This document shows positions 33,930-62,393 of a DNA stretch of 64,000 bases, piece by piece. The stretch is from Adineta ricciae (taxonomy: Eukaryota; Rotifera; Eurotatoria; Adinetida; Adinetidae): the NCBI GenBank assembly GCA_905250025.1, contig CAJNOJ010000291.1, positions 54,886 to 118,885 of the forward strand, in the 5' to 3' direction. Each line of letters opens with the position of its first letter. Position 1 is the first letter of the stretch. Made by a program: the position numbers and the translations under genes. The notes below the pieces were generated by a model. It saw only the letters and a list, made by a program, of their open reading frames with translations, ran no database searches and had not been told where the DNA came from.

Positions 33930-36900
33930 TCAACATTGACATGGATTGAAAAGGACTGATAAGATATTGTTGACTAAATTCATATTGATTATTATATTAT
34001 CACAAGAACTAGAATTGATAATATCATTTGATGAAGTATTCAATGTATTAAAATAAATCGTTTGTGTTTCGAAATATCCAGTTCCGTCTCCTAGAAGACC
34101 ATAGATTTTATCTGATGAAAGTGAACCAATAATAATATCCAAATAATTATCATTATTTAAATCACGTATAATTACTGACTTTGAATCCAATAATACTGAA
34201 GTTTCCATAAGAATTTGCTGATGAATATGAAAAGTACCATTATTATATTGATATAACATGGAAACTGTATAATTTTCCCAACTATGAAGATAAACAATAT
34301 CAGATTGATAATCATTATCAAAATCATCAACTATCATTCGTAATTGAGCAACATCATATGCCGTATAGAACCATTTTGGTAATTGAAAACTTCCATTTGT
34401 ATTTGCAAAAAATACATGAATGTGAAGAGAACGACCATTTAACACAGCTATATCTAAATAATCATTATTATCAAAATCACCAATAGCTAATTGTTGTGGA
34501 TCACTAGTCAATCCTATAAATAATATTGATTCTAATGAAAATGTTCCATTACCATATCCATATGAAATACGAACAACATTATCATATTGAACTATACAAA
34601 TGATATCCAAATTATTATCTTTATTAAGATCAACTATACTAATATCAATCGGAGAATAGATTAAGTTTAATGATACAATATTTTGTATTTGGAATGTTCC
34701 ATTACCGTTACCAAAGAAAATATTTATATTATTGTAGAACAAAATTTGAGTTAACAGAATTAAATCGAGTCGATCATCATTATTTATATCAGCAACATAA
34801 ATTTTATATACACTTCCATTAACATAAGTTGATATTATTTCTCCAAAAGAACCATTCGAATTTGCAATTAAAACATTTATTGTAGATTTATCATGACAAT
34901 AAAAGATAAAATCAACTCGTTTATCATTATTTAAATCAACAATTTCATATAGACTTGTATTTGAGAATAAACATTGTATATTAATTAATTGTCGTTTAAC
35001 TTTTAATTGACATGATAATCTCACTATATTTGAAGATGTTATTGATATTGAATTTATTTTTGTAGTTAAATTATTATTGATTAATATATTCTTTGTCAAA
35101 TCTATCAAATAAAAATATTAAAAGGATATTTAATAAATAATTTATTTTAAACATAAAATTTCATTCTTACCTTCTCGAATATAATATATCGAAAAAATCA
35201 CAATACCAATAAGTAGACATATTAATAGTATAACAATAAATATTATTTTGAAAAGTAATTGACTATGTGATATATTGATATTATTCATTGGTTTGTTTTT
35301 ACAATTTTGAGTTGAATGAATAGTTGTATTTGGTAATATTTCAAAAGAATTAATAGGATGAACAGAAGCACTTCGTTTTTTTTCGATAATAATAAATCTT
35401 TAATCCAATTTGAATAAATTTTGGACAAATCCATTTGAGAACAATTGTTAAACCACCTTGAAGACCAAGAATAATAGTAATTGTATAGAAAATATTAAAT
35501 TGTTCAATACTTATATAAAAACATAGTAAAGGTGAACATTTTTGATAATATAATGAATAATTCATTATTGTTAACCATTGTTCAATAAATAAATTTTGTC
35601 GAAGTTTTTCAATAGTTGTATTTTGAGAAAAATGAGTTAAATTTGTTATTGAAAGAGACTTTGATGAATTTTGATAATTTGTATAATTTTGAATAAAATT
35701 AAGACATAATTGATCATAAAAACATTCGAGAGTTGAAGCAAGAAGTGATTCACTTGGTATACATCCCATTTTCATTCCTTTTATAGAAATGTTTTGAGAA
35801 GAATTTTTATCAATAAAAATTGCTTGTGTTGTACATTTCGAAGATAAACCACAAGAACAATTATTATTATCATAGATTATAGATTTTCCAAGTACAAAAG
35901 TATCACCATTTTCATCAATATTTATATATTCAAAATTTGTTCCATAAATTGTTTCAAAAGCATTTCCATGAATAATACTTTGAGTAAAGAAGAGAAGTTG
36001 AGAAAATACAACAGGAGCATTTAATTTATTTTGTTCGATTAAATTATTGAGACGATCATTAAAATTCTTCTCAGATAAAAGTTCAGTTGTAACTAAAAGT
36101 GATGAAAGAAATTCATTGATCGAATTATTTGCTGTTTCCATTGAAATTTGACACAATCTTTGAAGATATTCTAAATGAGCAGAAAGAAATCGACGATAAT
36201 CAGTTCGTTCATAAATAGATAAATTAGAAACGAGACCATTAGTAAGTCCAATTCGCCATTCATTCGAAATAAATTCACTTAAACAAATCTATAAAAAAAA
36301 ATTTTTGTTTATCAATAACAAAATTTCTCTTACCGAATGAAATATTGGTTGAATATTCACAAATTGATTATATTTCGATGCTATGTTTGAACATGGACAT
36401 GTTAAATCATTATTATAGAGTTTTTTCAAATCTTTATAATAAGTAAAAGAGGGTTTAGTAAAAATTATTTTCATCGTATGTGGTCGAATAACTGTATAGA
36501 ACATTAAAATTGTGAGACCAATCATAAATAATATGAAATAAAGACGAGTTGCCCATCTACCATAACGTTTTGCTAATATTCGATCAATATCACTTCCGAA
36601 ATCACGTAATGAAAATATATTTAATTCTCTTAATGTTGTACGTAATAATTTAATTAAATGATATATTTTCATTTTTAGTCGATTAGTAAAAGTAACTTGA
36701 ATTAAAACTAAAAAATAAATTTAATATAGTTTCTTATTAATTATCAAACAAGTAATGATTAATTACTTTGTTCTGTTTGATTGGAATCTTTTTTGTACAT
36801 TGTTGAAAATCCTGAGACGAATTTAACAAGATGTGGTGTTAAGATACTCAATGATAGAACAATTCCACCAATCATTGATACTAATGTGATGATTATTCCA

Positions 36901-39731
36901 AAAAAATTTTGTTTTCTTACATTTTCCGTATAAGAACAATATACAGGTGCACATGATTCATAGAATTTTTCATATGATGAAACAGGATTCCATTTTTCAA
37001 GCATCAATTCATTGACAATCATTGAAATTGATGTATTAGGAGGATAACGGTTCACTTTTGGATCGTAAGTAAGAGGTCGTAGACGAAATGAAGATGTTGG
37101 AAGTGATAATGTTTCAGTATTTGCTTTTTTTATATAACTCAATAAAAATGGAAAACAATGAGAATTTTCATATAAACATTCAAGTGTTGAAAGTAAAAGA
37201 GAATCACTTGAAAGACAACCTTCAATCCAACCAGATATATTATGCATAAAACTTCCATATAAATAATTTGTATTCTGAATTGGATCGAAATCAGTAACAA
37301 TTGCTGACCTTTGACAATTGGGATTAATAGCACAAACACATGTAACTAAGCCTGTATTGATGTCTTCAACACCATATGGAATAAAATATACCTATAAAAC
37401 AATCATTTTCGAAATTTTCTTACACTTTTTAGTAGAATTTATTTTTGATATACGTATCAAAGTTTGATTTTTTACCTTTCTTTCGATTGCATTAATCGTT
37501 AAAATGTTTTCAAAATAACTACCCGATCCACGTTGATTTGCGAATTCTTCATGAAGTTGATCAATTCGTTGAGTAAGTTGTATAATATCATTCATTAGAA
37601 CAAAATTAAGCGTTGTCGATTGATAAAATTGATTGATATATGAATATAATTGTTGATTAAAATCGATTTCATTCATTATTGAAGAAGCAACAAAGAATTG
37701 TGAAAGAAATTTGTTCATTGCTGCATTGATCACTGTATTGGCTAATTGACAAAGATCAGATAAAATTTGAAATTGTTGATATGCTTTTGCACGCCAATCA
37801 ATTGAGAAAGACGCTAAGATATTGTTCATCATGTGATAAATCCAATCATCTGTAACGAATCCACTTGAACATATTTGATGAAAAACTGGAGAAAATGAAA
37901 GAAACGTTCCAAAAGTCATTGTTTTATTTGCACACGGGCATTGCAATGTTGTTGAATAAATAGATTCGAATGATTTATAAGTTGTCAATGATGGATTCGA
38001 TATAGTTGTTGTTACTATTTCAGTACTTAATGAATTGAAAAGACAAAGAACAGATATTGATCCTAAAAATTTCATTTAATTACAATAATTTGTTTATAAT
38101 AAATACAAATGTTACCTATTAATAATACTAAATAAATACGAGTAGTAATTCTTTGTTGTTGAATATCATTTTCAGATCGATGATTAATATTTTTAAATAA
38201 ATTTAATTGTTTTAATGTTTCAATTGGTTTAAATGTATTTTCATTTGTATTCATTTGAGAATATTTATATTTAAATAAACTATCAATTAAAAATGATACA
38301 ATTAAACGAAATATGATGATAAGACCACCATAAAGACTAATGAGAAGTGTAAAAGCAGAAGAGAAATTTGATCGAATTTTTGTTGAATATGAACATGTTG
38401 ATGGAGAACATTGATTAAAATATGTCGAATAATTCATATTTAATAACCAATTTTCAATGAAAAGATTTTCAAAATGAACAAGTACAGTCTTATTATCATG
38501 TTTTGAAGATAAAATTAAATTATTCCAATGAAATTTGTTTGTCTAAAAAAATCAAATTCATTTATTGAAAATATAATAAAGAAAAATGATACAAACATGA
38601 TTAAGATTTGGAAAATAGTTTAATAACCAAAGAATACATTCCAAATCATATAAACAATCCATTGTACTTTGAAGAAGTGCTTCAAAAGGAGTACATCCAG
38701 TAAAAAATCCATTGACACTTGTATGATCAGATAATCGTATCCATTGTTGGCCAAGATATTTCGAATAATTTAATGGTGAAGGAAGAAATGTTTGAATTAT
38801 TGGATTATCAATACCACATACTACAGCAGAAGAATTAAGTAAATAATATACTTTGGAAAATCCTGTTAGAACAGGTTTTGACTCAGAATATCGCGCTAAA
38901 ATTTGCCAATTTGTACCGAGAGCTGAAATTAAGAAATTTCTTTGAATTGTTGTTCGCCAATATTTTAAAAATGATCTTATTCGACCGAATGCATTCGTTT
39001 TTTGAAATTCGATTGTATTATTTATTTCCAATTGAATTTGCATTTGAGAAAGAAGATTAATAGTAACAAGTTCAGTATTATTAACATCAGATTGAATTTG
39101 AGAAATAATTTCGTTCGAAAGTGAACATAATTTCGATAAAATTTCAAACTAAATCAAAATAGTTCAAATGAATAAAATAGAATAAATATGATTTGAATCG
39201 TTTTACTTGTGAATAGGCTACTATTCGAAAATCATATTGCATATACCAACTTGCATTACTATAATATAATCCTTCAATCCATTCTCGTTTGACAAAAATA
39301 CTCGAACAAACAGAATGCATTGTTACATTGTTTGAAAGAAAAGTTTTATATGGTATTATCACTTGTGAACATGGACATGAAAATGTTTGACCATATTTCG
39401 AATAGAATTGATGATAATTATCAAATGTTATATCGGATATCATCATCGTTTCATATTCAGATTTGTTCAAAGTAGAATAAAACAAAACATAAAAACCGAC
39501 TTAAATAAAGAATAAAAATTTTATATTATTCTCTCAAGTGTAGAAAGAGTCAAAGATTTAGCAATTACCTGTGAGAAATACAACATACAACCAAGTTTGA
39601 TATTTTTGTTTTTTAAGAATAATAGTTGGATCTCTAATTGTATCATCATTATAATCATTTTCTTCCAACATGAAAAGATTATAATCAGATACAATTTTAG
39701 AAATCCAATTGAAGAACGTTTTCAGATTCAT
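33930..39731 (-). CDS. Three-module multi-TM protein with extracellular FG-GAP repeats (9 exons, ~1769 aa), one frameshift
   Basis: Exons: 39731-39569, 39499-39207, 39148-38597, 38542-38116, 38062-37476, 37391-36767, 36707-36334, 36288-35171 and 35101-33930; phases agree at every junction. The chain is cytosolic start, TM1 (about 46-66), Cys-rich ectodomain, TM2 (397-424), cytosolic linker, TM3 (468-490), ectodomain, TM4 (836-860), linker, TM5 (935-957), ectodomain, TM6 (1272-1295), TM7 (1351-1376), then six FG-GAP repeats (DLNNDKRVD, DINNDDRLD and so on). Each module opens with NLF...TRLY before the TM. It then has LxCPC, HxxCxxxF, ESLLxSTLECxY and CxPxxCxY, and closes with a TM carrying Gly-Gly-Leu. 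One extra base in the T8 run at 35376-35383 breaks the frame; with seven T the phase fits exactly. Homologous to 54764-62393. Function unknown. Confidence 0.75.
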
Positions 39732-40770
39732 TATATTGAAGTTAATTTTAACAATGTTGTGTTCTCAATGTCATCAGTTGTCAAGACAAAATGAGAAAGA
39801 AAAAAGGAAAATTGTCGTTTTGTTTTGTGTATAAATATTTCTACATTGTTTCTAAGTTGATTATTACTGTTATGAAAGTTCTTGAAAATACGTGAAATGC
39901 ATTTTGACATTGAACGGAAAGTAGAACAGGTTTTTAAGAAAATTGTTTTTTTTTTAAAGAGAATATATTTTTGAATGAATCACTTTTTGTTAATATTGAT
40001 TATTGAATTCAACGTGAAAAAAAGTAAATAATTGACGTCATAATGACTTATTAATTTTCAAGAAACATTTTTGCAGTTAGAAATATAATAATGATGATGA
40101 AGGTTCATTTAGAGAAAGACTGTAAATGAATATCGAAAAGAAATTGTAAAAATATATTATTTCAATATCATATTGAACATATCTTTTCTTAAAATTCAGT
40201 TCATATAGAAAACGAATCGCTCTTTCCTCGCTTTAATTTTAGGTGTATTCACTGCAAAAGTAAAAAAACTTGAAAAATTCGTCATTGTATATTTTTGTGA
40301 AATCGTTGTAGTCACGTCGGACACACTATTTACCCGAAGTTTCTTTTTTTGTATAGAGACAAAAATAACGTACCAGATCAAGAGAACACAATCTTATTAT
40401 TAGTAGTAAAGATGTATCATTTTTGGGCAAAATGAACTTTATATTTGAAATCAAGATAAAAAATTTAGTTTGTAATTACTATTCAACAAAAAGTTGTGCA
40501 ATAAAATCTCATTAGCATGGCTAAAAATACTTTTGTCATCGATAGTTATGATCATTTAGTTGATATTTTATAAATTTTGATAGTTAAATCATGTAAAACA
40601 GTGAATCGATATTGTGGTTTTATTGCCGATCTCAGCGAGGGAATGATTGTACCTTATCCACTTGCATAATCTCGATATCTAAATATTGAACATGAAATCT
40701 TAGTTTTCTCGGTAACATTTCCTTCATTGAAATATTTTATTGATATAAGAATGATTTACATGTCTTTTTT
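39732..40770. other. Intergenic, promoter side of the three-module gene
   Basis: AT-rich spacer between divergent genes. I see no exon or repeat; the promoter of the minus-strand gene should lie in its first few hundred bases. Confidence 0.4.
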
Positions 40771-41116
40771 ATGGTAATGAATCGAAACGAACGATTCTCA
40801 AAGATATCACAATCAGGAGAATATCATTCTTCCATAAATTCATCAATTGGATTTAATGAACTTAGAATTTTCACTAGCGTTAGTCGACAAGATATAAAGC
40901 TAAACTCTGAGTCTGTGAAACTGAGCAAACGACTAACTCAAAAGGGTGGCGAAGGTTAGATAATCCTTTCTAACATTAATAAAACATATTTTTCCTTTTT
41001 TCACAGGTTGGATTCACGGAATTCGTAGTTATCATCAGTTCGATCCATTGGCAGTGAGTCGCATCAGTTGTCGTAAAACATCCAGTAGCTCAGACTCAAA
41101 AGCATTCGCACTCTAA
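40771..41116 (+). CDS. Small Ser-rich protein, 2 exons, 97 aa, unrecognised
   Basis: Exons 40771-40954 and 41007-41116 join across a 52-base intron (GTTAGA to TTTCACAG) in matching phase. The product is hydrophilic, rich in Ser and Arg, with no signal peptide, TM or known domain, and ends SSSSDSKAFAL. The splice and the open frame on both sides support a real gene or the last exons of one. No upstream acceptor was seen before the ATG. Confidence 0.4.
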
Positions 41117-42147
41117 CATGTTCTTTCACGGTTTCTTCTTCTTCTCATGCTTGCAAAACCAGGCTTTTCTTATAATTAAAATATTAACATTGCAGTACTG
41201 ATCTATGAACACATGTATCAATGGAAAATAGCATAGATTTAAGGGGTCTTCGACGCACATACGGTTCGATATATCTTTTGATGTTCTATCAAATGAGATG
41301 TTTCGCGAAGTCCAGAGTTCTCTAGTTATGAAGTTTTTGAGCCTCGAATACTAGGGCGTTAAAAAGAGTTTACAGAGGCCCGTCGTTCTGACAGGAACCC
41401 AAAAACATTTTTAAAGTAGTGATTCTGATAGCCCTAATGACGAGGAATTCAAATATTTGATCAAAATTTCTGTAGCACAAAATAATGCAAAACTACGTGT
41501 GTTTCAAAGAATAAGGTACTTTGAAAAAACGTTCCAGAGAGTACTTGGTGTTTGGGCTAGAGCTCTTCAACAAAACATCCTAGAACTTTCGCCCAAGAGC
41601 AAAAAGTCTTAGAATTGTTTCTTATATAAGTCCTGGAAGTTTCAAACGATTTGTTGAATCTTGTGCATATCGTGTCACAAGTCCCATGGAATCGCCCACG
41701 TATAAAAATAAAAATGACTTAAATTTTCATTCCTTGAATTCTAGAGAAAATTTCTTGATCATCATCGAATGTCGTTTATGATTGAAATATAATTAATTAA
41801 TTAGTTATAGTACAGTCAAAGCAAACTACGAAGTTGATCATTGTAGGAATGAATGAAATCATTAGGATTTGGGCATTTCGAGACTCTACAGGTTGGAATG
41901 AGTAAGTTGAGAATAGAATTTAAATTTGATGTATTTTCGATACATAGTCAATTGCTTAGACACAACATTTGATATTAGCAAACTTATTTATCTTTCATAT
42001 AGAACGAGATAGAATCGTTTTATTCTTCGATTAATTTTTCTCATTTCTTTTCACGTGTTTTGATTAAAATACGGAAAGTAGAACAGAATCTCTTTTGGAT
42101 TAAATATGAAATCAAGTTCATAATAAATATGATAAAAAGAAGTGCTA

Positions 42148-42558
42148 TTAATCAATGTCGTTGTAAAAGACATGGTTGCTAATTTTAGCTGCTGGTTTTT
42201 TATGTGTTGGCCAATAATGGGGAACGCTTTCAACATGAGAGTGTTTTGATTTATAGGTTTTATCAGGACGTCTTTTATTAACCGCATCTTCGACAATGCC
42301 ATAGATATGTCGATAATCTTTATCAGTATTCTTCAACTTCTTTATTTTTTGATAATTCACATCATCCGAATTCCAATAAGAAAATTGTTTATCTTTCAAA
42401 CAAATACGTGCAATACTATTACCATATCCGACAGCATAGAAACGGTTCATAATTACATGAGCCACAGCAGCCTTGCCTTCATCCGATTCTCTCCGTGCTG
42501 CACCCCAAACCGTTCTTGTCAATATATCTAAATCATCATTACTTGCGGCGGAAGTCAT
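42148..42558 (-). CDS. SleB-like cell-wall hydrolase, copy 1 (136 aa)
   Basis: An intronless frame that closely follows the bacterial and phage SleB / Hydrolase_2 family, which cleaves peptidoglycan, for example the spore cortex. Visible marks are LTRTVW near 13-18, GKAAVAHVIMNRFY, a DKQFSYWN block and the C-terminal VPHYWPTHKKPAAKISNHVFYND. The family motif E-A-R-G-E reads A-A-R-R-E here, losing the first Glu and the Gly. QFSCWN has Tyr for Cys and KIGNHVF has Ser for Gly. The first Glu of the motif is a candidate catalytic residue, so activity is doubtful. No signal peptide and no intron. The family is not normally animal, so horizontal transfer from bacteria is likely. Confidence 0.75.
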   Translation of the reverse strand: MTSAASNDDLDILTRTVWGAARRESDEGKAAVAHVIMNRFYAVGYGNSIARICLKDKQFSYWNSDDVNYQKIKKLKNTDKDYRHIYGIVEDAVNKRRPDKTYKSKHSHVESVPHYWPTHKKPAAKISNHVFYNDID

Positions 42559-42943
42559 TTTTAAAAAAACAAGAGCACATATATACGCTCATGTTGAAAA
42601 GTACGGATTGGATCCGGAAGGACGAAACCGGAAATGAACGGAAAGTGGAAGAAGGAATCCTTAGGTTCTCTCCGCAATTGAAAGAAACTGGACAAAACCG
42701 GTCGTAGGATTCGGTTAAACGATCCTTGCTTCCGTTTTCCGTCGATTTTCGGTATCTTCTTGAAGCAACCATTGCTTTTCCCCTAGGGTTCCAGCAGAAA
42801 TTACATTGATCCGGGACCCAGAATCATTGTCCTGGGCAGCAAAAGTATCTACCAATCAGACCATATACGTCGTCTATCACTCATTGACTAAAGTATTCTC
42901 ATGGTGATTTTTAACACATAGGATCGTCTCCGTCCTCATACAT

Positions 42944-43139
42944 CAGTGGCGGATCTAGGATTTTGGGAGCAAAGGGCGATCGCTGAGTAGAGGGTGCGTG
43001 ATGTAGACCAAAAATCATTTTCGAAGGTTAAGCAAAGTAGTGTAAACTCTTATTTTCGACCATTTTTGCTGGAAAAATCAAAAAAAGTTCCGGAGGGGAG
43101 GGACGACTGCCCCATCGCTCCTCTCTAAATTCGCCACTG
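42944..43139. mobile_element. hAT-type MITE with 8-bp target duplication, copy 1
   Basis: The ends are CAGTGGCGGATC and the complement of CAGTGGCGAATT. The flanks are the direct repeat TCATACAT at 42936-42943 and 43140-43147. An 8-base duplication and CAGTGGCGGA ends are classical for non-autonomous hAT elements. 196 bases, no coding capacity. Confidence 0.85.
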
Positions 43140-43811
43140 TCATACATTCTTTGTAACATGAAGCGTATACGAATGCAAACAACATAGTGTGATATATGGC
43201 AATGATCATAGTGAGGAATAGATAATCTCGACTAATCCAAGAGTGAAATTCAGTTGATTGTATTGTCACATTGGTAAACATGCATGCGAGCGCACGAATA
43301 TTCTCTGTCCGCTCAAGAACAAAATCTTTTCTCGTCGAGATCGACATATGTAAACAAAAGAAGCCAAAATATCATCTTATCCATCACAGAGGGGAACAGT
43401 GTTTTTTCTTTCTTTCTCTTCTCTGTCTATAATAGCATTTCTCTTTTGGTCAATAAAACGATCTCCTTAAAAGCAAACCGGGCGAACTGCGGTAACAATG
43501 GATATAAAGGGTAATACTGAAAATAGATCAAAGAAACAACAAACTACATCTTATTTGTTGTAAATCAATCTGCATAGATTGAGGAAACAGAAGGGAGTTT
43601 CTTGCTGTTTAAATGTACATCATTGTCGCTTTCTCAAACTGTCTGAAATTACATAGAATTTTGTATTTGTTAACTTGCTTTGTATGACAAGAAAATAAAT
43701 AATGATTGGTAAATACATCGTAGAATATTATGCTGTGTTCAGTGCCGATTGTTAACTATTAGCATTACAATAACACTCTTCTTTATATAATCACGATATT
43801 GTCTTATTTAA

Positions 43812-45863: not shown

Positions 45864-46552
45864 NCGATATATCTTTTGATGTTCTATCAAATGAGATGTT
45901 TCGCGAAGTCCAGAGTTCTCTAGTTATGAAGTTTTTGAGCCTCGAATACTAGAGCGTTAAAAAGGGTTTACAGAGACCCGTCGTTCTGACACGAACCCAA
46001 AAACATTTTTAAAGTAATGATTCTGATAGCACTAATGACGAGGAATTCAAATATTTGATCAGAATATCTGTAGCACAAAGTAATGCAAAACTACGTGTGT
46101 TTCAAAGAATAAGGCACTTTGAAAAAACGTTCCAGAGGGTACTTGGTGTTTGGGCTACAGCTCTTCAACAAAACATCCTAGAACTTTCGTCCAATAGCAA
46201 AAAGTCTTAGAATTGTTTCTTATATAAGTCCTGGAAGTTTCAAACGATTTGGTGAATCTTGTGTATATCGTGTCACAAGTCCCATGGAATCACCCACGTA
46301 TAAAAATAAAAATGACTTTAATTTTCATTCCTTGAATTCTAGATAAAATTTCTTGGCCATCATCGAATCTCGTTTATGATTGAAATATAATTAATTAATT
46401 AGTTATAGTACAGTCAAAGCAAACTACGAAGTTGATCATTGTAGGAATGAATGAAATCATTAGGATGTTGGCATTTCGAGACTCTACAGGTTGGAATGAG
46501 TAACTTGAGAATAGAATCTCTTTTCGATTAAATATGATAAAAAGAAGTGCTG

Positions 46553-46963
46553 TTAATCAATGTCGTTGTAAAAGACATGGTTGCCAATTTTAGCTGCTGG
46601 TTTTTTGTGTGTTGACCAATAATGGGGAACGCTTTCAACAGGATAGTGTTTTGATTTATAGGTGTTATCAGGACGTCTTTTATTAACCACACCTTCGACG
46701 ATGCCATAGATATGTCGATAATCTTTATCAGTATTCTTCAACTTCTTTATTTTATGATAATTCACATCATCCGAATTCCAACAAGAAAATTGTTTATCTT
46801 TCAAACAAACACCTGCGATACTATTACCATATCCACCAGCATAGAAACGATTCATAATTACATGAGCCACAGCAGCCTTGCCTTCATCCGATTCTCCCCG
46901 TGCTTCACCTCAAACCGTTCTTGTCAATATATCCAAATCATCATTACTTGCGGCGGAAGTCAT
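46553..46963 (-). pseudogene. SleB-like cell-wall hydrolase, copy 2, nonsense at codon 18
   Basis: Same length as copy 1 (137 codons including stop), but the Trp18 codon is TGA (complement of 46910-46912). Elsewhere this copy keeps the family residues that copy 1 has lost: EARGE, QFSCWN, GNSIAGVC and KIGNHVFY. An internal ATG at codon 36 (46858) leaves a 105-codon frame without the catalytic motif. It therefore looks like the better-preserved allele, recently killed by one stop. Confidence 0.8.
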
Positions 46964-49118: not shown

Positions 49119-50026
49119 TGCTATTATGATTAACGCTGGTACATCCTCGAATGCAACCGATGACTCGAAAACGATGAAAAAAAAACCGTACAACCAGTTA
49201 TCACTCGACAAGTCCAGCGACCACCTACGGCTGAAGAGTCAATACGCAGCCATGTGCGAATGTTAATGGAAGGTGACCGAATTGGAACGGAGGAATTATT
49301 TATTGCATTAAAGAAATTCTTTGATGAACAAAATTATTCATCATCACAACGAATTACTTGTACACAGATGTTTTTGAACGACGAAGGAAAAGCGTGGTAT
49401 GAAGAAAACAAGCCCTCAATAAAGGATAATTAGTTGTTCTTTTGTGAACGATGCAAACAACATTTACAAAGCTGTCGGCAAGTTCGTGCACGTCCAACGC
49501 CACTAGGTGAAAATTTATTAGTCAACAATGAACAAACATCTTCGTTGGAAGATATCATTCAGGCACATTTCAACAAATATTCAGGTATTGGTGATGCAAG
49601 AAGTTGGTTGTTAGAAACCATGAATCGATTCAGATCACAGCGATTACGACGTGATGATCAGTTCGAAGCAATATCTTTATTATTAAAAGGAGAAGCTTAT
49701 TTATGGTATACGGCAAACATCGAAATCATTCTCAATTTCGAAATATTCAACAAGTTATTTCTGGAACAGTGCGTAGCATCAACGGCGTCAACGACAATTT
49801 CGATCAGGGGGTACTGGTGCATCAGCGACCGACGTATGTTCGTGGTTCACCGGATGATGTACACGATTGGTTAGATAAATTGGAACAACGATTTACCATG
49901 CCACATTGGTCCGATGAAAACAAGTTACAATACATATCGATACATTTGCAAAAAGATGCTTATCGATGTTGGATGCAGACATCTTCGACAATAAAGACCT
50001 GGCCTTTGTTCACAGATGCAGTTGTA
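49119..50026 (+). pseudogene. Degenerate retrotransposon gag-like region
   Basis: Three successive capsid-like segments are visible in shifting frames. The first ends TCTQMFLNDEGKAWYEEN. The second has MNRFRSQRLRRDDQFEAI and LLKGEAYLWY. The third has DDVHDWLDKLEQRF and SDENKLQYISIHLQKDAYRCW. This alternation of a helical segment and an A-x-x-W motif is typical of gag of Ty3-like elements. Stops and frame shifts separate the pieces and no protease, reverse transcriptase or integrase follows. It may be three nested or tandem gag fragments, or one gene with repeated capsid units. Confidence 0.6.
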
Positions 50027-50034
50027 CCCTACAG

Positions 50035-50430
50035 TTTCATTTTTATTTATTCAATTTAACGGAAACCAGTAAAAACATAACCTATTCAATTCATTTGGAA
50101 GTTCATCCATCAGAGTCGAATATTTCTTATTTATTAATCTATGAATCTGACCGTAAACCACAATTGAAACCTATTCAAAATTGGACGTTCTTGTGCCCAT
50201 CGAATTCCACAGTTGAGCCTTTAGAAGAAATGAACGAATATTGTTCGAATAAAACGTTGTATCCAAAACTCAATCAATCGAGAAAATTCACTTCTGATTA
50301 TCAAATTCGATTGTATCAATCAGCTTGTTTTTATCTGGATTCAGATAATAACTGGCAATCGGACGGATTGGTCGTTGGATCATTGACAAATTATAATCAA
50401 ACACAATGCTTTATAACATATCCACCATAA
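50035..50430 (+). pseudogene. Polycystin-like extracellular fragment with GPS-like end
   Basis: The frame from a likely acceptor (CCCTACAG) reads FHFYLFNLTETSKNITYSI, then a Cys-bearing segment, ACFYLDSDNNWQSDGL and YNQTQCFITYPP before a stop. The last part resembles the GPS/GAIN end of polycystin-1 and adhesion receptors (C-x-Y...W-x-S-x-G-L...T-x-C). However, it ends where CNHLT and the first TM should follow. The gag remnant lies directly upstream, so this looks like the stump of a larger surface-protein gene. It could instead be a short exon of an unseen gene. Confidence 0.45.
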
Positions 50431-50646
50431 ACTAACCAATAGTACAAATTTTGAACATTTGATCTACGTTTTCTATTTCTTCATATCTCTGAATCTTGGA
50501 TAGAGGATCGGATCTTTTCTCTTACTCATAGTTTCGTTTTCACATTGCAACTGACTTTTGTGATAATCGTATGAAAACAGATACAATTTTTATTATATCA
50601 CATATTGTAAAAGTGCATATATTATTTTAATTACTAAAGAATAAAT

Positions 50647-51988
50647 TTACTGACGTAAACGATGAAAAAACACGAAAAAAGTCAGAAGATGAAAAGAGAA
50701 ATTGTTGATTAGATTTGTCGCATGATTTCGATCGATCATTTGTGCAATATCTTTTATCATTGTTTTATATCGATGATCAATATCAATCACTTGAGTTTCC
50801 AATCGATTGACAACATATGCAAATGAAAGATTTTTCTCAGGCGCAGCAAATCCAATACTTCCTCCAATTCCTGCAAATATAAAACAACATTAAATACAAT
50901 CTAAGGAAAAAAATCAAACCTTGATGACCAAAAATTTCCGATCCCAATGATGGAAATAGGTCATTCATTACAGAAAATCCCATAGCAAATGTTGTTGTAA
51001 TATTCAAAACGAAATCAATTTCATGTGGAGGTGTATTCGATTTGATTGCTCGTTTTAAAATATCTTCGGTTAAGATTTGTTGATAACGATTATTTTCGAC
51101 ATTACCAATTAAACTCGCATAAAGTCTCGCTAAAGATCGAGCATTTGTTATTCCGTTTCCACCTGGAATTTCTGCTCTATGTGTAGTATTTTTATTGAAA
51201 TCATCAAGTGAAGATTGATATGGTTGGAGATCTAACGGTGAAACACGATATTCTTGTTCGGATGGTAAACCAACATAAAATTCAATTTGTAAAGGTTTTG
51301 CAATTTCATCTCGAATAAATTCACCTAAAGTTCGATTTTTTGGATCAACTCGTCGAACAAGTTCACCTGCTAACCAACCATATGTTAATGCATGATAACC
51401 ATGAGTTGTTCCTGGTTTCCATACAGGTTGACCTTGTTCTAATCTATTTGTCATCAACGTCCAATTCAAATAGTCATCAAATGGTGAAAAATCAAATGGT
51501 AAACCAGCACGATGTGAAAGAATATCGGCGACTGTCGTATTTTCTTTTCCATTTTGTCCATATTCAGGCCAATAGTTTGTAACTAATTTAGAATAATCGA
51601 GAAGACCTTGTTGAACACATAATGCAACAGCTATTGCCACTAAACCTTTTGTCGTTGAGAATACTAATTGTAACGAATTATTATCGTAAGATTTTGATTT
51701 CAATTTATCAAACCATCCGCCTTGGAGGTCAACAACTAAATTTCCTTGATAATAGATCGCTAACGATGCACCTAAATCTCGTTCTTCGACAAAGTTTTCT
51801 CGAAATAAATCTCGAACAAATTCCCAACCATCAGCTGTTGTTCCATCTATATTGAATTCATCGTTATTACCAGAAATACATGTGATAATAAGAAAAAAGC
51901 AAATCCAAATGTAGCTGTACATTCCTGTGCGTATTGATAATGAAAGCCAACGTAATAGAGTAAGACACGTATTTAAATGCGTCGTCAT
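50647..51988 (-). CDS. Serine beta-lactamase-like hydrolase (LACTB/EstB type), 2 exons, 430 aa
   Basis: Exons 51988-50920 and 50870-50647 join in phase across a 49-base intron. The catalytic S-x-x-K is STTKG at 111-114, the tyrosine motif is in HGYHALTYGW near 196-205, and the third motif is FGHQGIGGSIGFA across the splice. LSHRAGLP at 158-165 is a usual family landmark. Members are penicillin-binding-protein-fold hydrolases or esterases; animals have several (LACTB, nematode lact genes). The second Met (51922) starts a better signal peptide, MYSYIWICFFLIITCISG, so the true start may be there and the enzyme secreted or lysosomal. A hydrophobic C-terminus (NNFSFHLLTFFVFF) might be an anchor. 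Substrate unknown. Confidence 0.85.
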
Positions 51989-52115
51989 TCTATGCGATAC
52001 GAAGAAAACTCGTCATTGTGCAAATATAACATAAATGAGTAAGATAAAGGATTGTCACGTCTTGATAAGAAATAAAAGATCTTGAGAGAAGTATGTTTAT
52101 TTCAAGCATACATGT

Positions 52116-52682
52116 AAAACTCGAAACTTGAATTCGAGTATTCTTGAGGGCGTGGGTGTTGGGTGGGAGGGTGTTGGTGGGTATAATCTGTGTGAGGGTG
52201 CGGGGCAAGGTGTTGAGCAGGTATCGTTCACGTAGGGGTAAGTTACATGGTATTTGAGAGAAAGCATAGGTAAAAATATTTAGCAGTGCTCTCTGACACA
52301 TTTACATGGAAAGTTGGGTTAGTGTTAAATAGAATAAAAGAAGGTTTAGTGACAGAAACCCTAATGTCCGATGGATAGGGATGCTGCATTTCGTTGTGTT
52401 CTTCGTCTATATGTATGTGTAGGGAAAAACGCTTCACTGGTCGCTGTGCCTTTACTGCTGGTAATAGCTGACGTCGGCAAGTGTTCGACGACATGTCCTG
52501 TGACCCATAGCAAAGTTCAGATCTACTTTCGTGCCGAACACTATGCCACGCGCTACCTGGCAGTATGCTGTGTAACTGAGCAACAGGGCCGAAGGCCTTC
52601 TGAGTGTTCGTACCCAAAAATCGAATGCTGGGTCACTCGAATAATTGAATACTCGAATATTTGAATTCAAGTTTCGAGTTTG
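52116..52682. mobile_element. Small element with ~30-bp terminal inverted repeats
   Basis: The left end AAAACTCGAAACTTGAATTC and the complement of the right end match over about 28-35 bases. The right end has an extra AATATT-like insertion. Interior 500 bases, non-coding by eye. Target duplication not resolved. Confidence 0.65.
52154..52171 (+). other. Potential G-quadruplex
   Basis: Four G3 runs with loops of 4, 1 and 1 bases (GGGTGTTGGGTGGGAGGG), with further GGG runs on both sides. It stands out in an AT-rich window and lies inside the inverted-repeat element. Confidence 0.6.
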
Positions 52683-53504
52683 ACACTACTGAATAACAGT
52701 TCAGCAAATAAATCTAAACAATTTTTATGTGAATCGATGTTTCTACACAGTGAAAAATGCAGCTCCCTATCTTATTCCTATGGAAAATTATTTCAAAAGA
52801 CCTACATGATCCTTTATTTCGAAATGAACAATACTATCTATATTTGTTTGGTTCTTGAGATTGATGAATATCAAATTATTTATTGACTGTCAAAGTGCTA
52901 ATCATATATTTTAATAATGCCAATAAGTACTGTAATAAGCACTAATGTTGTTAATATGGTTTTCTCTTTTTTGCTCATGGTATTATCATATAACCAAGTG
53001 TTGTGGCTACCCGATATGTTTCATCAGTCATAAAAGAATAATCAACACCATTTAACACATGATCGAACATACAAGTTTTCCTTTTGTTTTTATTCAATAG
53101 TTGATCGTTTTCTTCTAGCTTTTCAATCAGTTTTTGTCAAGGGGGAAACAGGGCAGAGACCTCAGAATTGAACTACTTCACTGTACTTCAAATACTATCT
53201 GAAGTTGATGAAGTCTAGCTTTTCCTCACTTGTATGGAGAGCAGTACATGCCAGTATTTCGATGAACACACCCAAATCTATCCTTCGTTTCGTATACAAT
53301 GTTTATGAGAATCTCGAGCGAAGTGTTAAATCTGTCGTTTAACCTTTTCAATCAGCACCTTTGGTGAGAGTAATTAACGTTTCCCAACACGAGTAGAAAC
53401 GCCGTATTTTCTAAATGAAATAGTGAATCAACTTAGAGCAGAGAAATATGAAAGTCTATGGCGAAGCAGAATTCATAACTTAGGACCATTTTGTTTACTT
53501 CTTT

Positions 53505-53790
53505 GTGACGATCCCTTCAACGATAGAGCAGCTCAAAACGTATCAAGAATGCTTCTCGTATTCGATCGAACATTACTCATTTCAGGGGTTTATCTCATGC
53601 AGCCGCAATCGTGCTGTAGCCGAGATGTATTCCACAAACGCCTTGTCTATCATGGAGACACGCCGAACTTTCACTACAGATCTTACGCCGTGGGCTCAAT
53701 ATCCGCAATAAGAACTTGTCATGCCTGCCGTTCAAGATTGAAAAAATAGGATTTGACAATGGAAGACATCGTTTCTTTAGTAAGTACAGA
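53505..53790 (+). pseudogene. ADP-ribosyltransferase-like fragment
   Basis: The translation holds SFQGFISCSRNRAVAEMYS followed by FTTDLTPWAQYPQ, a stop (about 53709), then ELVMPAVQ and a second stop. This resembles the C-terminal half of rotifer proteins with a mono-ADP-ribosyltransferase-like fold, where a serine-rich strand and an E-x-E loop are expected. Here the E-x-E region is broken by the stop. N-terminal parts are not visible. Recognition is from memory of the family pattern and is tentative. Confidence 0.4.
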
Positions 53791-54763
53791 TAGTTCTTTT
53801 TCAAAATGCAGAGATTCTAGGAACTGTAGTTTCGGGGTTTGTGAATCGAAACAGAAATAAATAAGAGATATATGCTGATGTTTCATCATTTTTTCTGACC
53901 TGTGATGCCCGTAATACTCTTTGAACAAAAATGAATGCTGTTGGCATAATGTCCCACCTTGTCGCTTGTTATTATCGAATTGGTCGTATCATCCGTACAA
54001 GACTATGATGATAAAGTTGCCATTTGTTCTGTCAGTGTTACAGATCAGCTTGCCGATTGTTTAAATTGCATGGAACGTATTGATCTTCGTCGCGCCGTCG
54101 TAATATTCGTGATTCTTCTGATCATTTTTTTCTTCATTTTGATCGTAAAAGCGGTAGAGACTCATGTGAAGTTATTGGTTTAATATCGACAGATGGGAAT
54201 ACATTGTCTTCTAGATTCACACCCATACCTTTCAATATATATTGCCAGCATTTTCGCACAGGCCTCTGGTCCATCAAAAGAAAGAACAAAATTGAAGCTT
54301 TTCGGACAATATCAATCGGCAAATTTTCGACTTTTATTGCGCCTCGGTTCAAAGACTGTTCTATATCGCATCCTCAAGAAGATTAAATACTATCGGATAC
54401 ATTTAAAAAAACCAGAAAAAAGATATTGTTGATAATACATTTTTAACGGACAATGCGTCAGTCGCCACTATTTCAATGAATACAACGCAGAATCAACGCG
54501 AGTTTGTACTGTTTTATAGCTAATTGCGCTTGTTCGAAACGTTTATTTTTTTTCAAAAGACGAGTGTTCACTTGTATTCTCACTCTCACACCCTCACATC
54601 TAGTCGAGACTGAACATCTATACATATGATAATGTGAAATATTTATAGCAAAGAAAAGCGAAGAGGATTTACAATAAATAAAAACTTTTTTTTTCTTTGT
54701 TCAAAAGAAATCGTTTTTCTAATGAAGTTCAATATAAATGAAATTAATTAAGTAAGATTTAAC
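53791..54763. other. No gene seen
   Basis: Short overlapping frames only (for example 53959-54183 with a hydrophobic run). No consistent protein in any frame. Confidence 0.35.
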
Positions 54764-57700
54764 TCATGTTTCATGTACACAATATTCACCCAAGTTGAGA
54801 AAAATATTGATAGTAGACAATTGATCATCGATAACCAATATATCTTTGTAATTGTCACTGTTGAAATCCTTAACAATGAAACCATTCAGAACATCATCTT
54901 CATTCAAAGATACTGTTATTGTAGAATAGGTTCCATTTTCATTTTCAAGTATTATTTTCATATTCGGCTCTAAAGGGTACATAATAGCTATATCGATATA
55001 ACCATCACGATTAAAATCGCTTCCAGTAGCTACCGATGGCTGTGATGCAACTGGTATGATAATAGGTTGTCTTGTATTAAAAGTAGTATCACCATATCCA
55101 AACCAAATATGAATCGCTCCTTTATGATAATTCCAAGTAACAAGATCGAGCCGATTATCTTTATTAACATCGTTGATTGTCATGTATAGATGCATATAAT
55201 TATCGAACGGATGAAATTTGTGTTTTTCAAAACTGCCATTACCGTGACCGCGAAAAACAGTAAACCCGCAGAGTTTTGTATTGAAAGTAATAAGGTCAAT
55301 GTTATTATCATTGTCTAAATCAGCAGCAGTTAGGTTTTGTGGATAACTTGAACGTCCAGTAAAAATTGTCGTTTGGAGTGAAAAATTCCCATTATTCATT
55401 GCAATGTATATAAGAATTATGTTTGCAAACGTATCCATGACAGTGATATCTAAATATTTGTCACCATTAAAATCAGCCAGAGCAATAGAGTTGGAAAGTG
55501 GAATTTTTTCAAAGGAAAATGTTGAAACTAATTGAAAACCCCCATTTCCATATCCTGCTAACATTAATATTTGTTTGGTTTCAAATTCAACAAAGGCAAG
55601 ATCAAGTTGTCCATCATTGTTAAAATCAATAATATCGAGTTGAAATGTATCAGAATACGTTTCTATTGGAGTTATGACTTGTCTAGAAAAATTTCCATTA
55701 TCAATTCCAAGTCGCACAAGAACAGCCTTAAGACTCGAGCAAAAATATATGAGGTCAAGTCGATTATCTTTATTGAGATCAGCAACAACGGGTGATTTAA
55801 AAAGCGAAGAAGAACAATATGTAGGTATTGGTATGGTTTGAAATTTTAATGGACAATTTGATACTAATCAGACAACAAATGTAAATGATCATATATTTTT
55901 CTGTTTCTTCACTGACCTGAATTACGTGAATATGTTGTTGTCGTCACCGTCGTTGTATCGATATTAATTGTTGTGTTATTTGAAGAAGCTGACACGTAAA
56001 AAAAAAACAAATACTCTATAACTTTTCTTAGTTTTATCAATTGATTTCTTATACAATATTGAGACATATTTCAATGAACAATGTATTCGATTGTACGTAC
56101 TATATCGACATCTGAAACTGAAAGGTTAACTTCTTCCTAATTACAGTTATTCAGTTTGTAACGCAATGGACAATTCATTGAAATGGATTTTAAGAACTTG
56201 ACAGAAATACAGTTTAGAGGTTATAACACTTTTTGCGTTTCATACTCTCAGAATGGGTAACACCGACACTCCTTTTACAGTCTATAAAATTAAAGGTAAA
56301 CTTGTCAAAACCACAAGATCACGTGAAATAAAGGGAAATCATGGAGCTATGTATATATCACAGATTGCTTCCTCCCGAATCATTAGCCAAATGTTAATCC
56401 CTACCTGATTGAACCATATAAATAGAAAAGATCGTAAGAAGAACTGCCACAATTATCACCGAAATGCACATTAAGATAATCTTGAGAGAGTTTTGCCATA
56501 TAGTTGTTGTCGATGATGCATTTGAATTGTTTGTAGAATTTTGATGAGTTTCAATAGTTGTGATTCTCATCGAACTACTTGGTTGAATAGTATTCGTTCC
56601 TTTCTTTCGATATTCATTTATTTTAAATACACATAGAATTATCTGAGGACATATCCATTGAAGAACGATTGTCAAACCACCTTGAATACCAAGTAGAAAT
56701 GTTATCATGTAAACTAAATTAATTCGTTCAACGTAAGTATAAGAACATGACAAGGGTAAACATTTTTCAAAATAATTTGAATAATTCACCTTTGGTATCC
56801 ATTTTTCAACAAATAGATCATTGATCAATTTGAGTATAGTAGTATTTAATGGAAATCGAGTGTTGACTAGAGATAATGGAGTGATTTTTGCTGTATATTT
56901 CGTATGTTCACGAATAAGATCAAGACATGATTGATTATAAAAGCATTCAAGTGTTGATTGAAGAAATGATTCTGTTGGTAAACATCCCACTTTTAAACCT
57001 TGAAGTGGAATTTTTTCAAAATCATTCATCTTTAGAAAATTTCCTTGTGTTGTACAATTTGAATACAATTCACATGAACATTGATTATCATATATCATAG
57101 GTTTAGTCAATAGATAATTGACAGATTTGTTAAAAATATAATTGAAATTACTTCCAAATCCTGATATTAAAGCACTTCCATGTTTAATACTTTGAGTTAA
57201 AGAGAAATAACGAGTGAATATTGTATGGACATTGGATTTTGTCTGATCAATCTTCAAATTGAGACGTTCGTTAAAGTCTTCTTCAGTTAAGAGTTGAGTA
57301 GTAATCATAAAAGAAGACATAATTTGTGTAATACTACTGTTTGTTAATTCATTGAAAATATTACATAAACCACTGAGAAATTGTAAATGGGGAGAGAGAA
57401 AACGTCGATAATCATCACCTTGTTCGTATATCGCAGTACTTAAGTGTAGATTATCTGTAAGATTCATTCTCCATTCATTCGAAACGAATGGACTTGAACA
57501 AACCTATCGTTATAATAGAAGAAGGAAAAGAAGATAATTTTTAAATTAATTTAGATTATCTCAATCATAAAAATGTATTGATCTTCGACGGCTGACTAAA
57601 CTTTATCAGTTCTTTCATTTGTCAGCAGCGTAAAAAGTGTAGAAGCAGAAGGGAGGAGTGAATCTATATTTTTCTATTCTGACAATCGAAAAAATGGAAT

Positions 57701-60700
57701 TTTTAGTGTCGAGGTCGAAAACTCCTTTTTTTTTCTTTTGATTTTCGAAAGCAGAGAGCACTACACCCCATATCCCCTTGTATTTACGTTGCTGTTTTCA
57801 CTAGATCTGCACATCGAAAAATCTTCCTTACCTCATGCAATTCTACTTCATTCTCCACAAAATTATCATATTTTGATGCAATATTTGTACATGGACATTC
57901 TAATTTATTTCCATGTTTCTTCTCGAGCTGTTTGTAGAAATCGAATGTTAGATGATCAAAAGTTTCTCTTTGTGTTGCAGGTCGAACAATATTATAGAAG
58001 ATAATAATAACAAATGCAACAATATGTAAAATGATATATAGACGAGTAGCTATTTGACCAAGACGTTTAGCTTTTATTCGATCAGTGTTACTTCCAAAGT
58101 ATCTCATAGGAAAAAGATTTAAATTTGTTATACTAATAATACAAAATCTGATAGAATTTTGTATAGTTATTTTCAATCGATTCGACCATTTCTGACGAAC
58201 TATGAATGAATCAAATCAATATTATACATATATGTGAATTCGAATGATTACCTTGTGATTCTTGTTCGTTTCGTCTTTTGCTAATTAGAGTTAATAAACG
58301 ATAGACAAGACTAACAATTTGAGGTGTAATAAGACGTAGAGAGACTGTTAAACCACCAATCAAAGACATTAATGTTACCATTAATTCAGCAAAAGTTTTT
58401 ACTCGAACTCTCTCAAAATAAGTACAATGATTCGGTGCACATAATTCATAAAATTTCTTGTATGAATGAATTGTATTTAATTGATCTATCATCAAATTTT
58501 CTACCATAACTGAAATTGGTGTATTTGAAGAAAAACGATCTCTTGTCGGATTATAAGTAAAAGATTGAAAATCGAGCACCCATTGTGGTAGTTTGTCGAC
58601 GTTTTGTGTCAAAATTGGAAATACACGAGATTTAATTATTGGATAACAATCAGAATCAACATAGAAACATTCAAGTGTTGAATCCAGAACAGAATCAATA
58701 ATAGAACAACTCTCGACTATTCCTTGTAGTGAATTGTTACGATTCTTTCCATCATCATTTAGTAGACCTGGAAAATTAAAGGTGAAAAAGACTTCTGTTG
58801 TGCAACGAGAATTGATGATACAAGAACAATTGGTCGATCCCAAAAACTGATGATACTGAACCAAACGAGATAATATCTAAATAAAACAAAATAATTTTCG
58901 TTCTGTCGTAACTCATGAATTCAGACTACACATATGCGTTTAGAAATGTCGGGATTTCATCTTCATTCTTTCATTCATATAGATTCTAACTGTTAAAGAA
59001 AGATCATCACTTGAGATATCTTTTTTGAAGCGAAACTTTACTGAATCGAACTCTAGAGAATTGCGAACATAATCTCGATCAGGTTTAAGTTCTGTCTATG
59101 AAAATTGTAAAATACCTTTGATAATGATTGTGATTGATTATTAATTTCACTTGCATCATTATAAATTGAAACAGTATATCTGCTTACAGTAAATATATGA
59201 TAAATGCTTTGTATCTTATACGGTTGATCGATATGGAGCAGAAGACGTGATAATTCAATGATGAAACGAAAATGGAAAATGATCGGTTGAAAAAATTGAT
59301 TAATATTCACATCAATCTGTGTTTTAAAATCGAGCTCATTAAGTACAGTTGTAGTAATAAAGGATTGCGTATTAAAGCGAAGAATAGCATTATTGATTCT
59401 CTCATTAGCCAGTTGGCAAAGAACTCGTAACAATTCGAAATGTTCTTCAATAGTACAACTCCATGGTAAAAGTGGGCATTGTCTCGTCTGCATGTTAAAA
59501 TAACTGAATAGAGATTCGGAACCATTTGGTGAAAAAGCGGTTGTGCATAGCTTATGTAAAACTATACTTAATGAAATAAATTTCTGATGTGGTATTGCCA
59601 TAGTAGTGCATGGACATTTGAGTGTATTTGCATGTTTCATTTGTAGATCATTATAAATGGTTAATGATGGATTCGGCACAGTTATCATAGTCATATGAGT
59701 GCTCAGTGAATTAAAGAGAACGAGAGATATAATACTGACTAATAAGAGATAAAAAGAAATAATATACTGATATCGATACTTGTCTTAGTGAGTTAATATC
59801 CTCTACAAAGTTGAGTGTTTTTCTTTTGTTTTTACAATCAGAGATAATTGACGACATGTTGTAGCACAACTTTTTTTTTTGAGAATATGAGATCTTAGAT
59901 CGTATTTATGATAAATGAGTTGCGAATATATCAGTTGAAACGCAATGGCGTTCTCTTCATAGAAAAACAATTGGGAAACTTGTATTTCTTACAAGCAACT
60001 ACGATTCTCATTAATTTCGTAAATTGTCAATGAGTTTCGCACTGCATAATTGAGAAAGTGTATTAGAGATATCTAATCAAACGTGCTGACGAACAAAACC
60101 CGAAAATTCGAGTGCTTCGTTTTTTTTGCATCCATCTGCTATTGCGAGAAAACTGTACTTACACCTGTTAATAACTAGAAGACACTGATGGAAACAGCAC
60201 AAAAGTCTTTTAAAGATCTAATGGGATGACACGTTACATGTTCAAGTAGATATACAAAAGTTTCGTTGATTTTTGCTTTAATTTACTCAGAAATTTCATT
60301 ATTTGTTGCACTTTCTTTCAAAACTAGATTTTAATGTGTAATAATGATCGCACACAGAGAACTCTCTTATTAGATAAAAAGACAAAGAACAATCTTACTT
60401 GACAACAGAGTCAAATAAAGATGTGTTGTAATCTTTTGTTGTTTAATATCACTTTCTGTTTGTTGATGAATTCTTCTAAATAAATTCAATTGTTTGATGG
60501 ATTTAAAGGATTTCGATGGATGTATTTGTCGAAATACTAAAATTTATGTATTCAAAAGCTTTTATTCGAGACAATCACATTGTATTTATAAGACGTACCT
60601 AAAGCAATGTTTCGACTTTTAAAACAATATTTCAATTCCATAAAAGTGCTCATTAAGAGTGGTGCCATCAAGCGAAGTATAATAATGAGACCACCATATA

Positions 60701-62393
60701 AACTAATAAAAAGTGTTAATGCACGAGAAAAATTGATCTGATTCGTTTTTGTATATGTGCAAAATGATGGAGCACATTCGCTAAAATAATTTGAATAATT
60801 TGATACTATTTCCAATTCTTCAGTGAAAAATTTAGAAAAATATTCTTGTACAGAAATATTTCTTTGTTGTGTTCTTAAAATATGATCGGCCCAGCTAATA
60901 TTCATCTAGATTAAAAAATATGTGTGTGTAGAAAAACGAGACAAAGTAAAATACTTGTTGAAGGAACGGAAAATGGTTGATTATTGAATGGACACATTTG
61001 ATATCATATAAGCATTCAAGTGTGCTTGAAAGAATACTTGAAAATGGACTACATCCAACGAAGAATCCTTTGATATCTCCTTCCAGTATCAAATGGTCAG
61101 TTATATCACTAGGATTATTAAATATTTGATGATACGGTCCTGTATTGAGATTTGCTCTCGCAAAAACATCAGATTCGAAACAATTTATGCTACCCGTATT
61201 ATTAATAGAAGTGGAGGGGGGCGTTAATGCTATTTGAAGTAATTCAGTTTCAGAATTGTATGTAGCATTTAACCATATATTTGTATTGAGTGCAGAAACG
61301 AATTTACTCCTGTGAATAATTTTCATAATATAGTTCACAAACAGAATATTTGGATCAAATGCATCGGTTTTGATATAGTGCATGATGTTATTCACTTGTG
61401 TTTCCAGTTGTATTTCAGTATAAAGATGTATAGAAACAAGTTCATGATTGCGCATATTAAATTGAATGTCGGAAACTTTGTTTTCAGAGAACAAACAAAG
61501 ACTCGCCAAAATATTAAACTAAATGGAAAAGAGAAGCTATTTACGTATATAAACATCTTTATGTGTATATTTCCGTGTGAAAGATCGAATGAAAAATTAG
61601 TTCATCTGACTACCATGTGTTTAAAGAGCCGTATAAAATTTATCGGATCACTTCTGATAGTTGTACCTCAATTGTCAGTTTTAGTTTATCGTGAAACGAG
61701 TCATTTAAGTCGTAAGAAAAAGTGTCAAATAGAAAACACTGTTTGTTCGTTGTCATACAGCCGAGAGCATTTTAATTAGTAAGTACTATGGAGATTGGAT
61801 TAATGTCGGTACTTACATTGTTATCTTCAAAAAAAAGTGAAGCAAACTAACCTGAAGTTGAGCTACTGTTGGAAAGTCCCAAAGTGTATAATTGCTTTGC
61901 ATTTTATTAGATAATCCTTCGATCCATTCTTCGTGAATAAAGATACTCTTGCAAATAGGATGAAACGTGATTGAAAAAGAAACAAAATCCTTATACAATA
62001 GTGTGGGTTTCGAACATGGACATATGAGAGTTGTTCTGTATTCCAAATGAAGTTCATTGAATTTAGCAAGAGTAACATGAGGCTCGGTAATAGTTCTTGG
62101 TTGTGTTTTGATCAAAACAGCGTAGAACAAAACATACAAACATGCTAGAAAAACAAATTCCCATGCAAATCATTTCTTGATCAAATTATACGATGAAATA
62201 CTCGATTACGATTACTTTTACACTTACTGATGAGTAGAAGAACATACAGTCGAGTCGTATATTTTTGGTGTTTAAGAATATCACTTGGTTCTTGTACTTC
62301 ATCGTTGTTATCCACATGATCATCTTCGGACATAAAAACATTGTAATTTCGAATTCGATCAAGTAACCAGGAAAGTATATCTTTAAGTTTCAT
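54764..62393 (-). CDS. Three-module multi-TM protein with extracellular FG-GAP repeats (11 exons, 1784 aa), intact paralog
   Basis: Exons: 62393-62228, 62144-61852, 61518-60955, 60905-60599, 60536-60399, 59738-59116, 58876-58252, 58199-57832, 57503-56405, 55988-55917 and 55863-54764; every junction is in phase and no stop interrupts. The architecture equals that of 33930-39731: three TM / Cys-rich ectodomain / TM modules, TM7 (LMCISVIIVAVLLTIFSIYM) and seven FG-GAP repeats (DLNKDNRLD, DFNGDKYLD and so on). Exons 2 (293 nt) and the fourth ectodomain exon (625 nt) have identical lengths in both paralogs and intron phases are shared. Differences are one extra intron in the first linker and a separate 72-base Thr-rich exon before the FG-GAP part. 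Introns of 660, 416, 333 and 328 bases are long for this window. Plasma-membrane location is predicted; function unknown. Confidence 0.8.

Follow-up and report, generated by a model that had tools for sequence, protein, structure and literature searches.

Two paralogous Adineta ricciae genes with three two-transmembrane modules and an FG-GAP propeller: a candidate single-chain pseudo-trimeric receptor channel

What kind of membrane protein carries one module three times in a single chain? The question is raised by a stretch of 64,000 nucleotides of the Adineta ricciae genome (the window; contig CAJNOJ010000291.1, here C291, positions 54886-118885), which holds two paralogous minus-strand genes, gene 1 (39731-33930) and gene 2 (62393-54764). 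In both, a module with two transmembrane helices (TMs) occurs three times ahead of a seventh TM and FG-GAP repeats. The membrane body has no Pfam match above cut-off and no PDB sequence match, yet it gives more than 100 exon matches in the genome and is under purifying selection. We propose, with a probability of about 0.38, that the family is a single-chain pseudo-trimeric receptor channel; a pore-free recognition receptor is nearly as likely.

Both genes were rebuilt by hand from three-frame displays, with exons joined at GT..AG sites. Gene 2 consists of 11 exons with GT..AG at every junction and encodes 1784 amino acids (aa) with no internal stop. Gene 1 consists of 9 exons with GT..AG junctions and has the same layout, and the two genes have seven introns in common, with identical phases. 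The features, in window coordinates, are as follows.

60599..62393, minus: gene 2 exons 1-4 (62393-62228, 62144-61852, 61518-60955, 60905-60599), N-terminus and module 1; exon model with GT-AG junctions, positions of TMs and motifs.
58252..60536, minus: gene 2 exons 5-7 (60536-60399, 59738-59116, 58876-58252), cytosolic leader and module 2; exon model, homology to the other modules.
56405..58199, minus: gene 2 exons 8-9 (58199-57832, 57503-56405), module 3 and seventh TM; exon model, module homology, at least 117 own-genome matches of exon 9, itself counted.
55917..55988, minus: gene 2 exon 10, Thr/Asn-rich stalk after the seventh TM; exon model.
54764..55863, minus: gene 2 exon 11, predicted FG-GAP beta-propeller (seven loops of DxNxD type, one every 50-51 aa) and the stop codon; Pfam match, loop pattern.
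38116..39731, minus: gene 1 exons 1-4 (39731-39569, 39499-39207, 39148-38597, 38542-38116), module 1, followed by the module 2 leader; exon model.
36767..38062, minus: gene 1 exons 5-6 (38062-37476, 37391-36767), module 2; exon model, module homology.
35171..36707, minus: gene 1 exons 7-8 (36707-36334, 36288-35171), module 3 and seventh TM; exon model, module homology, ratio of nonsynonymous to synonymous substitution rates (dN/dS) 0.23-0.49.
35376..35383, minus: gene 1 frame-break site, a run of eight A; comparison with paralogue L028.
33930..35101, minus: gene 1 exon 9, predicted FG-GAP beta-propeller, six DxNxD-type loops found; Pfam match, loop pattern.

The initial annotation had proposed two splice-site gene models of about 1770 and 1784 aa. 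The model of gene 2 stands, whereas that of gene 1 holds for the layout and fails as one clean reading frame in the assembled sequence. In gene 1, about 1305 codons were open in one frame and the following 464 codons in the next. The break is one base in the eight-A run (T8 on the plus strand) and lies between TM6 and TM7. In L028 a single frame continues beyond this point and meets a stop ahead of its TM7, where an intron is likely. As read by eye, the gene 1 frame could also be restored by a GT-AG intron whose donor, gtgctt, is weak. The break is a true frameshift, a homopolymer assembly error or an additional weak-donor intron. The dN/dS values of gene 1 module 3 against its ten nearest paralogue segments were 0.23-0.49, and these values and the otherwise open frame disfavour a long-decayed pseudogene.

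The three modules of each protein proved to be copies of one unit, as had been claimed, since all 15 pairs of the six modules were homologous by blastp (best E value for each pair, 3e-21 to 5e-135; gene 1 module 3 extended a few residues beyond the frame break in this comparison). Between the two genes, modules at like positions were 37% (module 1), 35% (module 2) and 47% (module 3) identical, and the identity between unlike positions was 22-29%. Each module is built of a short cytosolic leader, a TM (TM1 of the module), an ectodomain of roughly 313-357 residues in which 12 cysteines are conserved, and a second TM (TM2 of the module) with Gly-Gly. Of the motifs listed initially, HxxC and CxPxxCxY were present in all six modules, and LxCPC (FSCPC in gene 1 module 1), STLEC and GGL in only five each. 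The relaxed forms ST[LM][ED]C and GG[LI] were found in 6/6. In a family alignment of 104 rows, many of them partial, 12 cysteine columns were conserved at ≥90%, and Leu-Asn-x-Phe before TM1, CxC, HxxC, STLxC, CxPxxCxY and the GG of TM2 at ≥85%; the conserved columns were filled by 36-64 rows. Among 34 modules, TM2 was the most conserved of the five module parts (mean 2.28 bits), followed by TM1 (2.06), leader (1.94), ectodomain (1.84) and tail (1.54), and Gly390 and Gly391 were each present in 32/34.

Hydropathy profiles of both proteins gave six TMs in three pairs and then a seventh hydrophobic helix ahead of the FG-GAP exon, in agreement with the initial annotation; in gene 2, an overlapping segment at TM6 and a weak peak within the propeller were not counted as TMs. 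The N-terminus was assigned to the inside from the lysine and arginine residues flanking the TMs, a signal that is modest for the first TM. The share of lysine plus arginine was 16% in the predicted inside segments and 6-7% outside, and 41/43 and 41/45 of the loop cysteines in the two proteins fell outside. Sequons per 100 residues numbered 2.5 and 1.8 outside against 1.3 and 1.2 inside; the inside segment preceding TM7 nonetheless contains two or three. These distributions agree with one another, and the predicted topology is self-consistent, as had been stated. G protein-coupled receptors (GPCRs) have seven TMs, short loops and an outside N-terminus; with three loops of 313-357 aa and an N-terminus placed inside, the present proteins do not fit that class.

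The C-terminal repeats of the two genes matched FG-GAP_3 in Pfam (1.7e-29 and 7e-38), and the gene 2 propeller matched PF13517 (6e-38). Seven DxNxD-type loops recur in gene 2 at a spacing of 50-51 residues, which is the pattern of a predicted seven-bladed calcium-binding FG-GAP propeller; six loops of gene 1 fit the pattern. Among the paralogues, FG-GAP frames lie downstream of L039 and L040, and NHL repeats occur in downstream frames of L041 and L063, in each case on the same strand; we infer that these frames are linked to the bodies by exons. L038 ends soon after the sixth TM in its own frame and shows no propeller in the open frame. The predicted outside end differs between family copies: FG-GAP, NHL, or none in frame.

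We searched the own assembly (130.5 Mb, 1033 contigs) for further members. The gene 2 module 3 exon (query 1; 112 of 1151 first-look candidates scored) gave at least 117 matches, the query exon itself counted, and some of them hold stop codons. Module 3 of L063 (query 2; best 102 of 1389 candidates scored) gave at least 102 matches. Ten stretches were fetched by non-random choice, L034-L037 as closer matches and L038-L041, L062 and L063 for lower identity or long frames. Of the 12 gene tracts (these ten and the two window genes), 11 contained exactly three modules in order; module 1 of L039 is cut by the end of its stretch, and a partial plus-strand copy at the edge of L034 was left uncounted. 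In L038 all three modules lie in a single 1266-aa frame from ATG to stop. Among the 102 scored matches of query 2, runs of three numbered 5, 8, 9 and 10 at gap limits of 400, 1000, 1500 and 2500 bases, and no longer run was seen at any of these limits. Because only the best candidates were scored, neighbours may be missing, and runs shorter than three are uninformative. This single frame of L038 argues against one separate gene per module. The initial annotation had named two possibilities against itself, separate genes for the modules and modules of no common ancestry; what was found runs against both, the modules being homologous and joined in L038. L036 (C291:38500-47400), a third family copy on the contig, lies outside the window on the opposite strand; its module 1 and half of its module 2 were missing from the sequence retrieved.

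A tree was built from 34 modules. In the subfamily of the window genes, modules 1, 2 and 3 formed separate clades of five, five and six rows, each with 100/100 support, and therefore the positions diverged before the genes of this subfamily did. Like positions also paired, at 100% bootstrap, between L038 and L062 and between L039 and L040. As read from the tree, the threefold layout is older than the duplications that gave the window subfamily, L038/L062 and L039/L040. A single ancestral triplication is not shown by the tree, in which the deep forks are unresolved. For 57 non-independent pairs with more than 60% identity (longest module segment per locus), dN/dS was 0.10-0.39. The compared family copies are under purifying selection.

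The following are established from sequence: the homology of the modules, the three-in-one frame of L038, the recurrence of three, the hydropathy and charge pattern, and purifying selection. DEG/ENaC/ASIC and P2X channels are trimers with two TMs per subunit. Three fused two-TM units, recurring from copy to copy, would be the expected outcome if a trimeric membrane complex became locked into one chain. We prefer the single-chain pseudo-trimeric receptor channel because the modules recur in threes, each has two TMs, TM2 is conserved and the propeller varies. The three modules would pack around a pseudo-threefold axis like the subunits of trimeric two-TM channels, and the three Gly-Gly TM2 helices would line a common pathway. 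The propeller, kept outside by TM7, would bind a ligand and shift the ectodomains to open or modulate that pathway. Fusion of the three copies would leave each position free to diverge and would fix the stoichiometry. A broader proposal, which we regard as rather doubtful, is a lineage-specific superfamily of possibly hundreds of genes, in which constant triple-module single-chain pseudo-trimeric channels carry exchangeable FG-GAP or NHL propeller sensors; it would be a novel class of animal receptor channels, unrelated to DEG/ENaC and P2X.

Several observations weigh against the channel. No direct pore feature was recognised in the TM2 sequences: G[AS]S was found in 0/34 modules (the looser G-x-[SGC] in 5/34), acidic residues were absent from the common residues within TM2 of the 34 modules, and its conservation showed no helical peak near 100 degrees per residue, the highest values being at 80 and 140. 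A 13-row module profile matched no PDB sequence at E ≤ 10, and 13 modules matched neither Pfam ASC (PF00858), tested at E ≤ 5, nor P2X (PF00864). Alignment of the modules with an own-genome ASC profile by hhalign gave a probability of 0.2% and an E value of 0.26 over 40 columns around TM1 only; this comparison has limited power, as proteins of one fold may lack recognisable sequence similarity. AlphaFold2, run on exon 9 of gene 2 (module 3) together with nine further pieces from the window, returned a mean predicted local distance difference test score of 51 and a predicted template modelling score of 0.24, too poor to bear on a trimeric channel fold, and the helices and strands of this low-confidence model, including its helix-rich first half, carry no weight. 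The gene tracts read are a non-random sample, and in the twelfth, L036, the retrieved sequence shows module 3 and, of the other modules, just the second half of one. In the tree, L041 and L063 were unpaired by position, module 2 of L041 grouped with module 1 of L063 (90/79), the position labels needed 7 changes where the minimum is 2 (shuffled mean, 16.6), and the deep forks were weakly supported.

The strongest competitor, only slightly behind in our estimate, is a non-conducting recognition or adhesion receptor, whose six or seven helices would anchor three ectodomains and a propeller that bind partners, prey, microbes or matrix, with the expansion serving diversification of recognition. The integrin-alpha-type propeller of gene 2 with its seven calcium-type loops, the NHL repeats downstream of two other copies and the large family expansion are consistent with this receptor. 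So are the roles suggested for expanded bdelloid families in the available part of PMC3846280, namely defence, chemosensory perception, extracellular signalling and cell-cell communication. A plain anchor would, however, explain neither the recurring three two-TM units nor TM2 as the most conserved part, and the open frame of L038 shows no propeller.

Compared with this receptor, a fused and highly diverged member of DEG/ENaC or P2X is unlikely, although the per-module topology is the same, the ectodomain is likewise cysteine-rich and a trimeric stoichiometry would match. G-[AS]-S is the selectivity filter in TM2 of DEG/ENaC, and His-Gly precedes TM1; the former is missing as described above, and His-Gly before TM1 was found in 0/34 modules, some rows of which lack part of these columns. 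The matches of ASC (90) and P2X (46) in the own genome lay, as compared by eye, at places other than those of the family; the control of the ASC genome search also gave signal in 1/14 named genomes. Membership in either family is unsupported by Pfam and by the genome positions, and membership in DEG/ENaC also by the profile comparison. A carrier, transporter accessory or lipid- or sterol-handling protein with a threefold repeat is a shade less probable again: its sole point in favour is that the protein is a polytopic repeat protein, and no transporter family scored above the Pfam cut-off. We consider it very improbable that single-module genes or pseudogenes were joined by over-generous exon linking, because the frame break of gene 1 and the stop codons in some query 1 matches are set against the single-frame L038, the 1784 open aa of gene 2, the seven shared introns in the same phases and purifying selection.

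In Pfam, the matches of eight module pieces were all at chance level and below the curated cut-offs (best E 0.02), and the same held for 13 whole modules (best E 0.02, with every family hit by a single module). One module exon was used to scan prokaryote contigs, at a sensitivity limited to close relatives, and gave 63 pattern stretches and 0 confirmed; in plasmids, a module exon gave nothing at 1e-5. No description of the three-module body was found in searches of the open-licence literature, and FG-GAP, NHL, transmembrane, ion channel and bdelloid-specific do not occur in PMC5916493. The family is new with respect to Pfam, PDB sequences and the open-licence papers searched, as well as to prokaryotes and plasmids within the reach of the two scans (close relatives). 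The initial remark that no named family has this layout agrees with the Pfam and PDB results, and that the family is typical of bdelloids is plausible.

Other features lie near the two genes or near family matches. A cell wall hydrolase of bacterial type (PF07486) is present in two closely similar copies, at 42151-42588 and 46556-46909; by eye, the DNA around them (about 42.1-43.4 and 46.5-47.8 kb) looks duplicated. A beta-lactamase-family serine hydrolase (PF00144, 1.6e-51) occupies 50840-52012 on the minus strand. At 28061-32931 on the plus strand, repeated FG-GAP-like frames flank hAT-type-transposase-like frames (29218-31784, by eye). Reading by eye also gave retroelement gag-like frames at 49164-50430 (the piece 49918-50427 had no Pfam match), a minus-strand GPCR-like frame at 13380-14420 and a minus-strand frame with LDL-receptor-A-like cysteine repeats at 3533-5290. 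Elsewhere in the assembly, arrays of TGTGGG, which we take to be the bdelloid telomere unit, lie at C227:81478 and C345:1428; family matches at C227:83537 and C345:8191 are some 2 and 7 kb away, possibly in a subtelomeric setting. The reversed control of the TGTGGG search is the same repeat and hence gives no contrast. Both these arrays and the bacterial-type genes are in keeping with a bdelloid genome.

The closest known systems include the expanded gene families of Adineta vaga, which in the available part of PMC3846280 include FG-GAP proteins, NHL proteins and 7-TM receptors. The lineage expansion of FG-GAP and NHL repeat proteins is common to both species, whereas the three-module body is undescribed in that part of the source. 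NHL and teneurin-type propellers (PF01436, PF25021) resemble the repeats downstream of the L041 and L063 modules and differ in the upstream body, which is here the three-module one; the scan covered these exons. The integrin alpha propeller (PF01839, PF13517) resembles that of gene 2, which has seven repeats of about 51 aa and calcium-type DxNxD loops, but it belongs to a single-pass subunit, whereas here a seventh TM, following a six-TM body, bears the propeller. P2X (PF00864) shares two TMs and a disulfide-rich ectodomain; the P2X ectodomain has ten cysteines, and the present modules have twelve cysteine columns at ≥90% and no Pfam match. DEG/ENaC/ASIC (PF00858) shares with each module two TMs around a cysteine-rich ectodomain, with both termini inside, and differs in its G[AS]S and HG motifs, absent here, and in that the present chain joins three units and adds TM7 and a propeller. 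The four-domain Nav/Cav channels and the K2P channels are tandem fusions of subunits into one chain, as would be the proteins described here, which are candidate channels only, with a threefold fusion and a two-TM unit bearing a large ectodomain. If the proposed channel is correct, a threefold case would join the fourfold and twofold fused channels, and the family would supply a receptor repertoire of its own.
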